Shown here piece by piece: positions 9,869-12,750 of a DNA stretch of 64,000 nucleotides. Source of the DNA: an uncultured Spirochaetota bacterium (lineage in GTDB: Bacteria > Spirochaetota > Spirochaetia > Treponematales > Rectinemataceae); NCBI GenBank assembly GCA_903821875.1, contig CAIJMU010000088.1:1-64000 (forward strand), read 5' to 3'. The notes beneath the pieces were generated by a model, which ran no database searches, was not told where the DNA came from, and saw only the letters and a list, made by a program, of their open reading frames with translations. How positions within the stretch are numbered: position 1 is the stretch's first letter; each line of letters starts with the position of its first letter. The position numbers and the translations under genes are program-made.

Positions 9869-10340
9869 TCATGGAAGACCCGTAAGCGCGTTCCATTCGA
9901 TCCCGCGTCGAGACCAGTGCTCACCGATAGCTTGGGTGAAGCCGGGCTTGACCAGCTTGGCGCGGTCCTCGAGCCAGAGTTCGCCTTCCCGGCGGAGGTA
10001 GTAGCCCTCAAGCTCGCCCTCACAAGAGGAGCTTGTCCCCGATATCCTCCAGCCCTTCCATGAACCGCAATTTGCCTGGGATGAGCTGGATATCGGCGAT
10101 TGCATGGGTCTTGAATGGGAAGGTGACGGAGAACTTGACTCCAATGCCTGGTTCAGGACCAGCGGAATATTCGATGCGAACTGGGACTTCGACAGGATCC
10201 TCCAGAGCCCCGATGGTCCCGGCCCGCATCCGGACATGGACAGCGGCGACGGTGTCCATCCGGAAGAAATCACCGATCCAGAATTCCCTGGGTGAGGAAA
10301 TTCCGCTCGAATCAACCAGTTTCTTTTCACAGGTCGGGGT
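9869..10340 (-). pseudogene. frameshifted gene remnant of unknown family
   Basis: Two consecutive minus-strand frames give protein-like sequence that joins at about 10022. The upstream frame reads [14 protein letters not shown]...[20 protein letters not shown]...KLRFMEGLEDIGDKLL and hits TGA at 10020. The neighbouring frame carries on as EGELEGYYLRREGELWLEDRA...FTQAIGEHWSRRGIEWNALT to a stop at 9869. No start codon with a ribosome site exists at the 5' end, where the frame runs into a stop near 10374 inside hicA. I read it as a gene of about 150 codons with a lost start and one frameshift. The family is not recognised. Confidence 0.45.
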
Positions 10341-10345
10341 TCCAG

Positions 10346-10534
10346 ATGCCTTACAAGTCGTCTGAGGTTCTCAGAAGGCTCAAACGGGGTGGATTTCTGG
10401 AGACTCGCAGTTCCAGTTCCCATATCGTTCTCCGGCATCCTGATGGTCGCCAAACCTACGTGGCAATGCACCCGGTCGAAAAGCGGAGGATGCTCCATAC
10501 CTCATGGGGTATATTTTTGACATATCCCCGATAG
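10346..10534 (+). CDS. hicA: HicA-like mRNA interferase, C-terminus altered, 62 aa
   Basis: HicA toxins are small double-stranded-RNA-binding-fold RNases. The first 45 residues match the family: [17 protein letters not shown], then the catalytic-His segment [14 protein letters not shown] and VAMHP. After HPVE the usual GTLxxIxxxAGL ending is replaced by an unrelated tail, so the protein is probably frameshifted or decayed. No HicB antitoxin is found on either side. The start ATG has a weak GGGG site. The 3' end overlaps the hipBA promoter. Confidence 0.55.
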
Positions 10535-10545
10535 GGTAATATTCT
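10517..10545 (+). promoter_or_regulatory. hipBA promoter with operator in the spacer
   Basis: TTGACA (10517-10522) and TATTCT (10540-10545) are 17 bases apart, a near-consensus sigma-70 promoter. The spacer holds the inverted repeat TATCCCCGATAGGGTA (10523-10538), reminiscent of the TATCC-N8-GGATA sites bound by E. coli HipB. Binding there would block polymerase and explain autoregulation. Confidence 0.7.
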
Positions 10546-10592
10546 TTGATATACCTCTTAAGATATGATGTTCGCAGTAATCCGGAGGTTCC

Positions 10593-10859
10593 ATGAAGTA
10601 CCTCATCTCCACAGCCGACCAGCTCTCCCATGCCCTGCGAAGCGCTCGCAGGACCAGGGCATTAAGTCAGGATGGCGCGGGCAGGCTAGTAGGGCTCCTC
10701 CCCAAGACCATCTCGGCCCTGGAGAACCAACCGGGCTCCGCAACCATCGAAAGCCTCTTGAAACTCCTGTCTGCCCTCGAGTTGGAACTTGTGCTCGTTC
10801 CCAAGGGGGCAGACCACTCCCCGAACACTGATTCTCCCCAATTCAAAGGGGAGTGGTGA
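10593..10859 (+). CDS. hipB: HipB-like antitoxin, HTH_XRE, 88 aa
   Basis: A short DNA-binding protein with a Cro/C1 helix-turn-helix at residues 10-60 (LSHALRSARRTRALSQ, AGRLVGLLPKTISALENQPG, IESLLKLLSALELELVL). This is the normal size and ending for HipB, which neutralises HipA and represses the operon. A GGAGG site lies four bases upstream of the ATG. The hipA start follows within a few bases of the stop. The spacer operator in the promoter fits autorepression. Confidence 0.85.
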   Translation: MKYLISTADQLSHALRSARRTRALSQDGAGRLVGLLPKTISALENQPGSATIESLLKLLSALELELVLVPKGADHSPNTDSPQFKGEW

Positions 10860-10861
10860 AC

Positions 10862-12190
10862 GTGGCCAGGCCCTCGCAGAGGCGCGCCCTCGGGCTCTGG
10901 TTGAACGAGATTCGCGTCGGTACCTGGTCGGTAGTCGCACGCGGGACTCATGAGTTCCGCTATGAGGATTCCTGGCTCATCCACCCTCAATCCAGGCCGA
11001 TCTCACTCTCCCTCCCCCTCGCCGAAGCCGGCTACTCATATCGTGGCGAGACGGTGTCTGCCTACTTCGACAATCTCCTCCCGGATTCGAGCGAGATCCG
11101 CCAGAGGATCAGGAGGAGGTACGGAGCGGCGTCCCTCTCGGCTTTCGATCTGCTGGCAGAGATCGGAAGGGATTGCGTCGGAGCGATCCAGCTCCTTCCC
11201 GAGGACGAAGCGCCCTCCCCCATCGACCATATCGAAGGCAGGCCGATCGACGAGCATGAGATAGCAGCACTACTGAAGGGGCTGACAGCCATGGGGCCGG
11301 GCGGGCGCGTAACCAATGAAGAGTTCCGCATATCCCTGGCAGGGGCGCAGGAGAAAACCGCCTTGCTGCGGTTAGAGGGAAGGTGGTTCGTTCCCCACGG
11401 CTCGACGCCATCGACCCACATCGTGAAGCTGCCACTCGGAAGGATGGGCGGTCTCGGATTCGATATGACCGGCTCCGTCGAAAACGAATGGCTCTGCACA
11501 AAGGTCGCAAGCGCCTTGGGACTGGAAACGGCGCGCTGCGAGATAGCCCGCTTCGAGGACGTAACAGCCCTCGTCGTGGAACGTTTCGACAGGAGAATGG
11601 CCGAAGACGGGAAGCGGATCATCCGGCTTCCACAGGAGGACTTCTGCCAGATCACTGGCATTCCTCCCAGCGGCAAGTATGAATCCGACGGCGGCCCGGG
11701 CATTGAAACAATTATGAGAATCCTCCTGGGCTCCCAGGAGGCGGCCAAGGATCGCGAGACCTTCTTCACGGCCTTGGTCCTGTTCTGGCTCCTGGCTGCG
11801 CCCGATGGACACGCAAAGAACTACTCGGTCTTCATCGAACGGGGCGGTCGGTTCAGATTGGCGCCCCTGTATGACATCATGTCGGCTTACCCCGTTCTCG
11901 GTAATGGAAGCGGGCTGATCCCGCCCGAGAAGCTGAAGCTGGCCATGGCTTTCAGGGGAAAGAATCGCCATTACGAGTGGGGAAAGATCAGCCCCCGTCA
12001 CATCAGGGAGACCGCAGGCCTCTCGGGATTCGATGGATTCATCGACACGGTAATGCAGCGTCTTGCGCGTGAGGTTCCGAAGGCAACACAGGAGCTTGGA
12101 AGGAATTTGCCCGATGAATTCCCTGGCGCAATTTCAGAGCCGATCCTTCAAGGGATCGAAACACGCGCCACGCTGCTTCATAGCGAATAG
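10862..12190 (+). CDS. hipA: HipA Ser/Thr kinase toxin, 442 aa
   Basis: HipA phosphorylates glutamyl-tRNA synthetase in E. coli and causes growth arrest. The family's N-terminal couple domain is seen at residues 5-100 (RPISLSLPLAEAGYSYRGETV, YFDNLLPDS), then the kinase core: GAQEKTALL near 158, HIVKLP, NEWLCTKVASALGL, VERFDR, RLPQEDFCQITG, the catalytic DGHAKN near 315 and the metal-binding YDIMS near 337. All key residues are present and the length is full, so the kinase should be active. In-frame GTGs at 10853, 10856 and 10862 are possible; the last has the best spacing from AGGGGAG. Confidence 0.9.
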   Translation: MARPSQRRALGLWLNEIRVGTWSVVARGTHEFRYEDSWLIHPQSRPISLSLPLAEAGYSYRGETVSAYFDNLLPDSSEIRQRIRRRYGAASLSAFDLLAEIGRDCVGAIQLLPEDEAPSPIDHIEGRPIDEHEIAALLKGLTAMGPGGRVTNEEFRISLAGAQEKTALLRLEGRWFVPHGSTPSTHIVKLPLGRMGGLGFDMTGSVENEWLCTKVASALGLETARCEIARFEDVTALVVERFDRRMAEDGKRIIRLPQEDFCQITGIPPSGKYESDGGPGIETIMRILLGSQEAAKDRETFFTALVLFWLLAAPDGHAKNYSVFIERGGRFRLAPLYDIMSAYPVLGNGSGLIPPEKLKLAMAFRGKNRHYEWGKISPRHIRETAGLSGFDGFIDTVMQRLAREVPKATQELGRNLPDEFPGAISEPILQGIETRATLLHSE

Positions 12191-12287: not shown

Positions 12288-12410
12288 TGGCTGAGCGCGA
12301 TTCAGTAAATCCCGGTCTCGGCCATATGAAAAACGGCCCCCTTAGGGGCCAATTTTCTCAAAGCCGAGACGGGGATATTTCCGCCTAGCGGAAATATCTC
12401 TGAATCGCGC
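12288..12410. repeat. nested palindrome unit 1 (tRNA-Thr-derived)
   Basis: Three inverted repeats are nested. The outer arms are GCGCGATTCAG (12295-12305) and CTGAATCGCGC (12400-12410). The next pair is CCCGGTCTCGGC (12311-12322) with GCCGAGACGGG (12363-12373), the acceptor/T-stem sequence of the nearby tRNA. Inside is a GGCCCC-cttA-GGGGCC hairpin followed by a T-rich tract, and at 12374-12398 an 11-bp stem (GATATTTCCGC) with a 3-base loop. The first 36 bases (12288-12323) recur at 12416-12451 with one mismatch. Confidence 0.8.
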
Positions 12411-12415
12411 AGCAT

Positions 12416-12511
12416 TGGCTGAGCGCGATTCAGTAAGTCCCGGTCTCGGCCTCAAATCAAAAGCCGCCCTTGCGGGCGGCCTCAAATTCAATCAGCCGAG
12501 ACCGGGAATCG
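12416..12511. repeat. nested palindrome unit 2 (tRNA-Thr-derived)
   Basis: This starts with the same 36-base leader as unit 1. Arms CCCGGTCTCGGC (12439-12450) and GCCGAGACCGGG (12495 on) enclose a 44-base spacer with a GCCGCCC-ttgc-GGGCGGC hairpin. The 73 bases 12439-12511 are repeated exactly at 12623-12695, where the right arm is the real tRNA gene. Confidence 0.85.
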
Positions 12512-12551
12512 CCCTCCAGCCTCGGACATCCTGTCCTCGGCTTCCGGGCCG

Positions 12552-12698
12552 CGCCTTTGCGCTGACGCGCGCATCCATGCGCGCTCATCCTCGCTCCGCT
12601 CGGCGCGCAAAGGCGTTCGATTCCCGGTCTCGGCCTCAAATCAAAAGCCGCCCTTGCGGGCGGCCTCAAATTCAATCAGCCGAGACCGGGAATCGAAC
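12552..12698. repeat. nested palindrome unit 3 joined to tRNA-Thr
   Basis: CGCCTTTGCGC (12552-12562) pairs with GCGCAAAGGCG (12605-12615) around a GCGCGCAT-cc-ATGCGCGC hairpin. It is followed at once by a 20-bp arm GTTCGATTCCCGGTCTCGGC (12615-12634), a perfect inverted copy of the tRNA T-arm and acceptor 3' strand (12679-12698). The 44-base spacer between the arms is identical to that of unit 2 and holds the tRNA terminator. Confidence 0.85.
12643..12664 (-). terminator. intrinsic terminator of tRNA-Thr
   Basis: On the minus strand GCCGCCC-gcaa-GGGCGGC is followed by TTTTGATTTG. It lies 15 bases after the tRNA 3' end. The same hairpin is present in palindrome unit 2. Confidence 0.7.
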
Positions 12699-12750
12699 CC
12701 GGTACCTGCGCATTACGAGTGCGCCGCTCTGCCAAGTGAGCTATCTCGGC
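12679..12750 (-). tRNA. tRNA-Thr (anticodon CGU)
   Basis: Reads a full cloverleaf on the minus strand: acceptor GCCGAGA/TCTCGGC, D-stem GCTC/GAGC, anticodon stem GCGCA/TGCGC with loop CTCGTAA (anticodon CGT, decoding ACG), short variable loop AGGTA, T-stem CCGGG/CCCGG with loop TTCGATT. The length is 72 without the discriminator base; CCA is not encoded. Its 3' half is copied in inverted orientation immediately downstream. Confidence 0.95.

Follow-up and report, generated by a model that had tools for sequence, protein, structure and literature searches.

A gene-free element, probably mobile, inserted in the T-loop of tRNA and tmRNA genes of Spirochaetota

A mobile element that settles at a tRNA gene normally depends on one particular tRNA, whose sequence its attachment site must match. 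Islands and prophages at tRNA and tmRNA genes break inside the gene, restore its 3′ end, leave the displaced fragment beyond the insert and can form tandem arrays. Gene-free DNA is moved in trans in the REPIN/REP systems (RAYT, Y1 HUH), whose sequences are about 100 nt long and form hairpins, and MITEs are likewise short, non-autonomous and palindromic. Integron attC sites fold as single-stranded DNA (ssDNA) and occur in tandem arrays, and the rtT repeats of the E. coli tyrT operon are tandem units of about 170 bp located 3′ of a tRNA, each holding the tRNA 3′ end.

Here we analyse an array of palindromic repeats beside a tRNA-Thr(CGU) gene in a 64,000-nucleotide (nt) stretch of spirochaete DNA (hereafter referred to as the window), together with its copies elsewhere. 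The array probably arose when a mobile DNA element specific to Spirochaetota, which carries no genes and is non-autonomous, inserted in tandem. The element is about 170–200 bases long and contains a folded core of about 100 nt, and the gene is left whole after insertion. That a gene-free mobile element inserting into T-loops exists is very likely, and this claim is independent of the steps by which its ends are joined.

No described element with these features was found in the literature searched (open-access full text). The element resembles REPINs and MITEs, which are gene-free and moved in trans, and also tDNA islands, but it shows the complete set of hallmarks of neither. Like REPIN/REP sequences, many copies carry a G[G/T]AG-like motif, here at the foot of helix P3; unlike them, the element targets only tRNA and tmRNA T-loops, has arms with the target's own sequence, a terminator and a larger three-way-junction fold, lies practically always 3′ of tRNA or tmRNA genes or their fragments rather than dispersed between genes, and occurs in genomes without a Y1 transposase (13 of 34 element-bearing genomes). 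With tRNA and tmRNA islands it shares the internal break, the restored 3′ end, the displaced fragment and the tandem arrays, but it is shorter than 200 bp, carries no genes and encodes no integrase, and a single core occurs at very many tRNAs, with arms rewritten to each and an inverted arm added. The predicted ssDNA fold, the arrays and the T-loop GTTCRA, which resembles the GTT core, recall attC sites, whereas the break falls at T55|C56 and not at G|TT, there are no gene cassettes, and a true integron integrase is found in only 14 of the 34 element-bearing genomes. The rtT repeats are similar in being tandem units downstream of a tRNA with its 3′ end; the element differs from them by its inverted arms, its conserved core at many tRNAs and the lack of RNA-type pairing. 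It differs from MITEs in lacking terminal inverted repeats of fixed sequence; its inverted arm has the sequence of the target.

Architecture of the tRNA-Thr array

A repeat search of 12288–12698 resolved the array into three tandem units of one repeat family. With A denoting tRNA bases 56–73 and A′ the same sequence inverted, a unit consists of A, terminator, A′ and core, after which A follows again. On the tRNA strand the order is tRNA, A1 (C56–73), terminator T1, A′, core 1 and A2, continuing with T1, A′, core 2, a partial A3, terminator T2, A′ and the start of core 2:

12678–12750, minus strand: tRNA-Thr(CGU), intact (ARAGORN; Rfam tRNA model, 65 bits; parse)
12678–12695, minus strand: A1, first copy of arm A, the last 18 bases of tRNA-Thr from C56 to the discriminator
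12635–12677, minus strand: spacer s and intrinsic-terminator-like hairpin T1 (GCCGCCCGCAAGGGCGGCTTTT), recurring without change at 12451–12493 (sequence, parse)
12615–12634, minus strand: A′, inverted tRNA 3′ end, 20 bp perfect with 12679–12698 (repeat search)
12512–12614, minus strand: core 1, the conserved, probably mobile core (covariance model, folds)
within 12512–12614, minus strand: first part of the core 1 fold, P2 three-way junction with two hairpins
within 12512–12614, minus strand: second part of the core 1 fold, P3 with GGA/GGA and GAG/GAG internal loops and a ACAGGATGT hairpin
12495–12511, minus strand: A2, tRNA bases 56–72 repeated directly, with C56 as first base (repeats, parse)
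12451–12494, minus strand: spacer and terminator T1, second identical copy (direct repeat, parse)
12438–12450, minus strand: A′, second copy, 13 bp (repeats, parse)
12374–12437, minus strand: core 2, two hairpins at the core position (sequence, parse)
12363–12373, minus strand: A3, incomplete direct repeat of the tRNA 3′ end (parse)
12323–12362, minus strand: third spacer and terminator-like hairpin T2, which differs from T1 (GGCCCCTAAGGGGGCC) (sequence, parse)
12288–12322, minus strand: third A′ (12310–12322) and truncated start of core 2 (12288–12309), the far end of the array (direct repeat, parse)

In the unit with core 1, A2 and A′ pair as stem P1. Core 1 matches the family covariance model described below at 12502–12627 (121.2 bits, E = 2.7e-26), and its fold is more stable than expected by chance as DNA (z = −5.6) and as RNA (z = −6.4). 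Folded as ssDNA, the 411-base region reaches −152.7 kcal/mol, against a dinucleotide-shuffle mean of −81.5 (z = −16.8). Core 2 gave no match to the covariance model in the search of its own genome and is a degenerate or divergent unit. Directly beyond the array, window positions 10292–12190 (plus strand) encode a HicA-like toxin, an HTH protein and a HipA kinase (Pfam matches); such toxin–antitoxin genes are cargo typical of island hot spots, and no integrase was seen adjoining them.

A sequence-only reading of this locus had described the repeats accurately: all were recovered by the repeat search, including the 36-base leaders (12288–12323 and 12416–12451, one mismatch), and the perfect 20-bp inverted repeat (12615–12634 and 12679–12698, 44 nt apart) whose right arm is the tRNA-Thr(CGU) 3′ end. 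Additional stems of 17 bp and 13 bp and a hairpin pair at 12365–12407 are also present. The block common to its second and third units runs to 74 identical bases (12438–12511 and 12622–12695) and not 73. It took the unit to be a tRNA end, a terminator and the same end inverted, and the copies to be inverted and not direct. The arms, the terminator and the inversion hold, but the true unit extends through the core, and tRNA bases 56–73 are directly repeated as well. The hairpins that it placed between the units (12512–12614) are real and turn out to be the most informative part, recurring across the genome and the phylum; the conservation of this core and the direct repeat beginning at C56 had both escaped it.

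Copies in the genome and the phylum

Searching the source genome with the region revealed more copies of the stretch 12504–12607, located 3′ of the Leu(CAA), Leu(CAG) and Met tRNAs, and their arms have the sequence of the local tRNA, not that of tRNA-Thr. An alignment of 15 units drawn from eight genomes led to a covariance model, R1; in this alignment, 22 of the 30 predicted pairs have compensatory changes. R1 detected five strong and one or two weak copies in the source genome. Of 59 relatives, 34 hold copies, as do 81 of the 393 genomes sampled over the phylum. A single-genome scan of the closed 4.06-Mb genome G041 gave 24 matches; 20 reach E ≤ 2e-7 and count as strong. The scan used in the enzyme comparison below counted 21 copies there, and the closed 3.24-Mb genome G038 yielded seven matches. 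These copies, found in the source genome and in relatives alike, rule out a one-off rearrangement.

Named hosts among the matches listed in a pattern scan of GTDB genomes are Treponema, Spirochaeta, Spirochaetaceae and Spirochaetales, and the non-spirochaete pattern matches listed all fail the covariance model; on these matches we rejected a general distribution beyond Spirochaetota. Phage and plasmid collections contained no match to the element; matches of the window to plasmids (query 409–491) are merely tRNA genes. One element copy lies on a 44-kb IMG/VR contig (L354, 4270–4520), at a prophage end. We do not regard it as viral, since it sits behind a displaced tmRNA 3′ fragment and is host-derived; the element was probably in place at the tmRNA before the phage integrated there.

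Insertion between T55 and C56

For 80 of 94 scored matches, an annotated tRNA of the same strand lies no more than 400 nt upstream; the other 14 comprise two later tandem units and 12 that mostly follow tRNA 3′ fragments or are located at contig ends or next to runs of N. The element sits directly 3′ of tRNAs for at least 15 amino acids and 28 anticodons in this set, and three genomes each have one copy at tmRNA. At each copy the arm sequence matches the local tRNA. Every insertion has the same layout. The tRNA remains intact, its complete 3′ end being A1; next come A′ and the core, in most cases after a terminator, and finally the displaced original 3′ end, A2, with the old flank.

The direct repeat begins exactly at C56 in 99 of the 109 first units with a recognisable right-hand arm, and at T54 in one, which places the insertion point at GGTT|C56, so that the T-loop is split between T55 and C56. 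A few subfamilies deviate from this point, and the tmRNA copies retain GGTTC on the right. A′ is complementary to the local arm, with its T-loop end fixed and its other end variable (mostly 10–22 nt). The terminator is duplicated along with A in 36 of 94 matches, compared with 4 of 94 control flanks. This duplication is not universal, and some copies (L002, L064 and L066) have no terminator. Inverted flanking sequence past A′, which a long snap-back copying the flank would be expected to leave, was found in 6 of 94 matches at score 40 and is not general.

Evidence for movement

The tmRNA locus of G436 is a precise empty site, with one 3′ end and one terminator followed by the neighbouring gene, and tmRNA is likewise empty in several further species of the genus. 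In G339, the same locus is longer by about 194 bp, between flanks that are 93% and 87% identical, and the additional sequence supplies another 3′ end and a new terminator, along with A′ and the core. The rebuilt tmRNA gene uses the left copy, A1, and the old flank follows the right copy, A2; this is an insertion. Tandem units occur three at a time with 176-nt spacing (L152) and four at a time under Gln(CTG) in G041. At L115 (1389–1615, in G041), under tRNA-Pro(UGG), an element lies within the P3 hairpin of another, flanked by short inverted and direct arms of only 5–6 nt, a rare insertion outside a tRNA.

The core sequences also record movement between tRNAs. In 84 cases, the genome that holds a core has another copy under a different anticodon. 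For 20 of these cores the nearest core was such a copy, against a mean of 2.1 and a maximum of 8 when the genome labels were shuffled. The Arg, Trp, Met, Thr and Gln cores of G041 are one another's nearest, and the Leu(CAA) and Met cores of G038 are 88% alike with different arms. Some of the 20 cases are neighbouring tRNA-Ser genes with a common 3′ end (L267), for which ordinary recombination would suffice. Same-anticodon cores from different genomes are somewhat more alike than average (0.554 versus 0.498), so vertical descent or local re-duplication explains part of the pattern. The copies at many tRNAs, the genome-specific spread and the precise empty site support two suggestions of the sequence-only reading, an undescribed tRNA-derived palindromic repeat and a mobile element that inserts at tRNA ends.

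These observations also bear on a minimal, gene-free genomic island, in which a tyrosine or serine recombinase acting in trans would integrate a circle of A, spacer, A′ and core at the tRNA 3′ end, with A as attachment site and A′ and core as recombinase-binding arms. A restored tRNA and a displaced 3′ fragment do surround the insert, and a split and restored tRNA with a displaced fragment is tDNA-island anatomy (Islander, PMC4383910). Unit-length arrays fit repeated integration, and phage-integrase-type ORFs adjoin some tRNAs of the region. We nevertheless consider this account unlikely: a recombinase requires the incoming A to equal the target, and one core with matching arms at 28 anticodons is unexplained unless the arms are rewritten. 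Integrase genes, moreover, adjoin a few loci only.

The fold is probably maintained as DNA

Covariation in the stems is strong. Across 105 copies, with 790 double-change cells, the score was 0.631, compared with 0.169 for shuffles and less than 0.09 for slid partners, and a second, mostly new set of 98 gave 0.572 against 0.156 for shuffles. In RNA stems, G-U pairs are tolerated on the transcribed strand only. In the element stems, G-U accounts for 1.4% and A-C for 0.8% of cells (1.15% and 0.7% in the second set), whereas the acceptor and T stems of the tRNAs at the same loci have 8.8% and 0.5%. The G-U to A-C asymmetry is thus about 2 to 1 in the element and 19 to 1 in the tRNA stems, and the RNA-type pattern, in which G-U is tolerated and A-C is not, is missing from the element. 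Strong covariation with scarce G-U and weak asymmetry suggests that pairing is required or maintained as DNA, and we consider it likely that the fold is kept at this level and not as RNA.

The pairing pattern weighs against a role as a structured non-coding RNA or in the processing of tRNA operons, similar to rtT of E. coli tyrT, in which the element would be co-transcribed, pair through its arms with the tRNA 3′ end and regulate maturation. Such a role would suit the strong covarying structure on the tRNA strand and the several copies that have no terminator between tRNA and element. The terminator, however, usually precedes the core, species differ in whether a given tRNA is occupied, and empty sites are precise. 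The element copies match no Rfam family, RtT included, only tRNA and tmRNA reaching gathering scores. With its stems so short of G-U wobble, an RNA function of this kind is highly improbable. Sub-threshold Rfam matches in the window (mir, Histone3, psRNA6 and Plastid-ycf2) were set aside as chance or tRNA antisense.

Template switching can homogenise inverted repeats and produce double changes without wobble intermediates (PMC8604942), and the scarcity of G-U could stem from such homogenisation or partly from high G+C. The unpaired motifs GGA, GAG and CAGGATG are conserved as well, and homogenisation alone would not account for them. Template switching at tRNA terminators would also, with gene conversion and no transposition, yield tandem units, inverted arms and homogenised palindromes (PMC8604942). 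As a complete account, local duplication of this kind has a very slight chance of being right, since it leaves unexplained one conserved core and fold at many tRNAs in many genera, and a single fixed insertion base.

A possible mechanism

For the T-loop-inserting mobile element that we favour, copying of the arms is something we infer from their match to each target. The core would move as a folded single DNA strand, with helices that must be Watson–Crick. At a nicked T-loop, the 3′ end of the core would be attached to the 5′ end that starts with C56, and repair synthesis beginning at T55 would restore the gene by copying A together with the terminator. At the terminator hairpin the growing strand would change template to the displaced A2, generating A′, and its ligation to the folded core, at the core's 5′ end, would complete the insertion. 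An enzyme provided in trans would carry this out. Given that the terminator is sometimes absent or unduplicated, the template-switch point would vary, which counts against this reading. Replication-fork foldback, raised earlier as an origin of the array, is refuted as a one-off event by the copies across genome and phylum, but it is plausible as the step that makes the inverted arm. These joining steps are, in their detail, doubtful.

We suggest, tentatively, that the element represents a new class of mobile DNA: a folded, gene-free, single-stranded core that inserts at T55|C56 of any T-loop, with a restoring arm (including the terminator) and an inverted arm copied from each target by repair synthesis and template switching, and with many tRNAs and tmRNA occupied and none inactivated. 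Local arms at tRNAs for so many amino acids (at least 15), and at tmRNA, imply that the element can take its attachment sequence from the target. Arms taken from the target would be a new solution to harmless insertion into essential genes. With copies numbering in the hundreds across Spirochaetota, gut and termite Treponema among them, the family constitutes a large natural data set for single-strand DNA elements, and its position 3′ of tRNA genes will confuse the annotation of islands, terminators and tRNA fragments.

Candidate enzymes and the weakest alternatives

We compared enzyme presence across the same 59 genomes, 34 element-bearing and 25 element-free, a comparison in which XerC/D and other resident recombinases are not separable. 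None of the families compared emerged as the mobilising enzyme, and the element was not seen in an excised form; we count both against the mobile-element reading. The Y1 HUH/RAYT family (PF01797) occurs in 21 of 34 element-bearing and 9 of 25 element-free genomes (p = 0.07), and the 13 element-bearing genomes without it include G035 (16 copies), G043 (17), G054 (15) and G057 (10). Integron integrase (TIGR02249, over cut-off) occurs in 14 of 34 and 13 of 25 genomes, respectively (p = 0.44), and the true enzyme is absent from G041. Reverse transcriptase (PF00078) does not explain element presence (p = 0.74) and is absent from 14 copy-rich genomes (G041, G048, G043, G035, G001 and nine more). Each of these three enzymes is missing from copy-rich genomes, and we rejected them as obligate partners. 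One 2.3-Mb genome, G049, has 27 Y1-transposase matches and no detected element copy.

A SINE-like retroelement moved by target-primed reverse transcription is barely plausible: duplication of a target-derived A with its terminator resembles copying of a pre-tRNA, but the 14 copy-rich genomes without PF00078 include the closed G041, and the pairing is DNA-like. An assembly artefact, conceivable for the 193-contig assembly to which the window belongs, is refuted by the same units in the single-contig G041 and G038 and in unrelated assemblies.

Tyrosine-integrase-type ORFs adjoin a few of the tRNAs, as expected at island hot spots. In several relatives (L034, L038, L042 and L152) they lie immediately 3′ of tRNA-Thr or tRNA-Met, and islands use these same tRNA ends. 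Elsewhere in the source genome, on contig C98 (L008, 1440–1640), a cluster of GGCGCGCATGGATGCGCGCC-like hairpins that resemble core hairpin B, with no tRNA detected nearby, is possibly another palindrome family. At two tmRNA loci, L197 and L207, the tmRNA 3′ end is repeated and the place of the core is taken by unrelated or decayed sequence; by analogy of layout, these may be other element families that share the architecture, like core 2 of the window.
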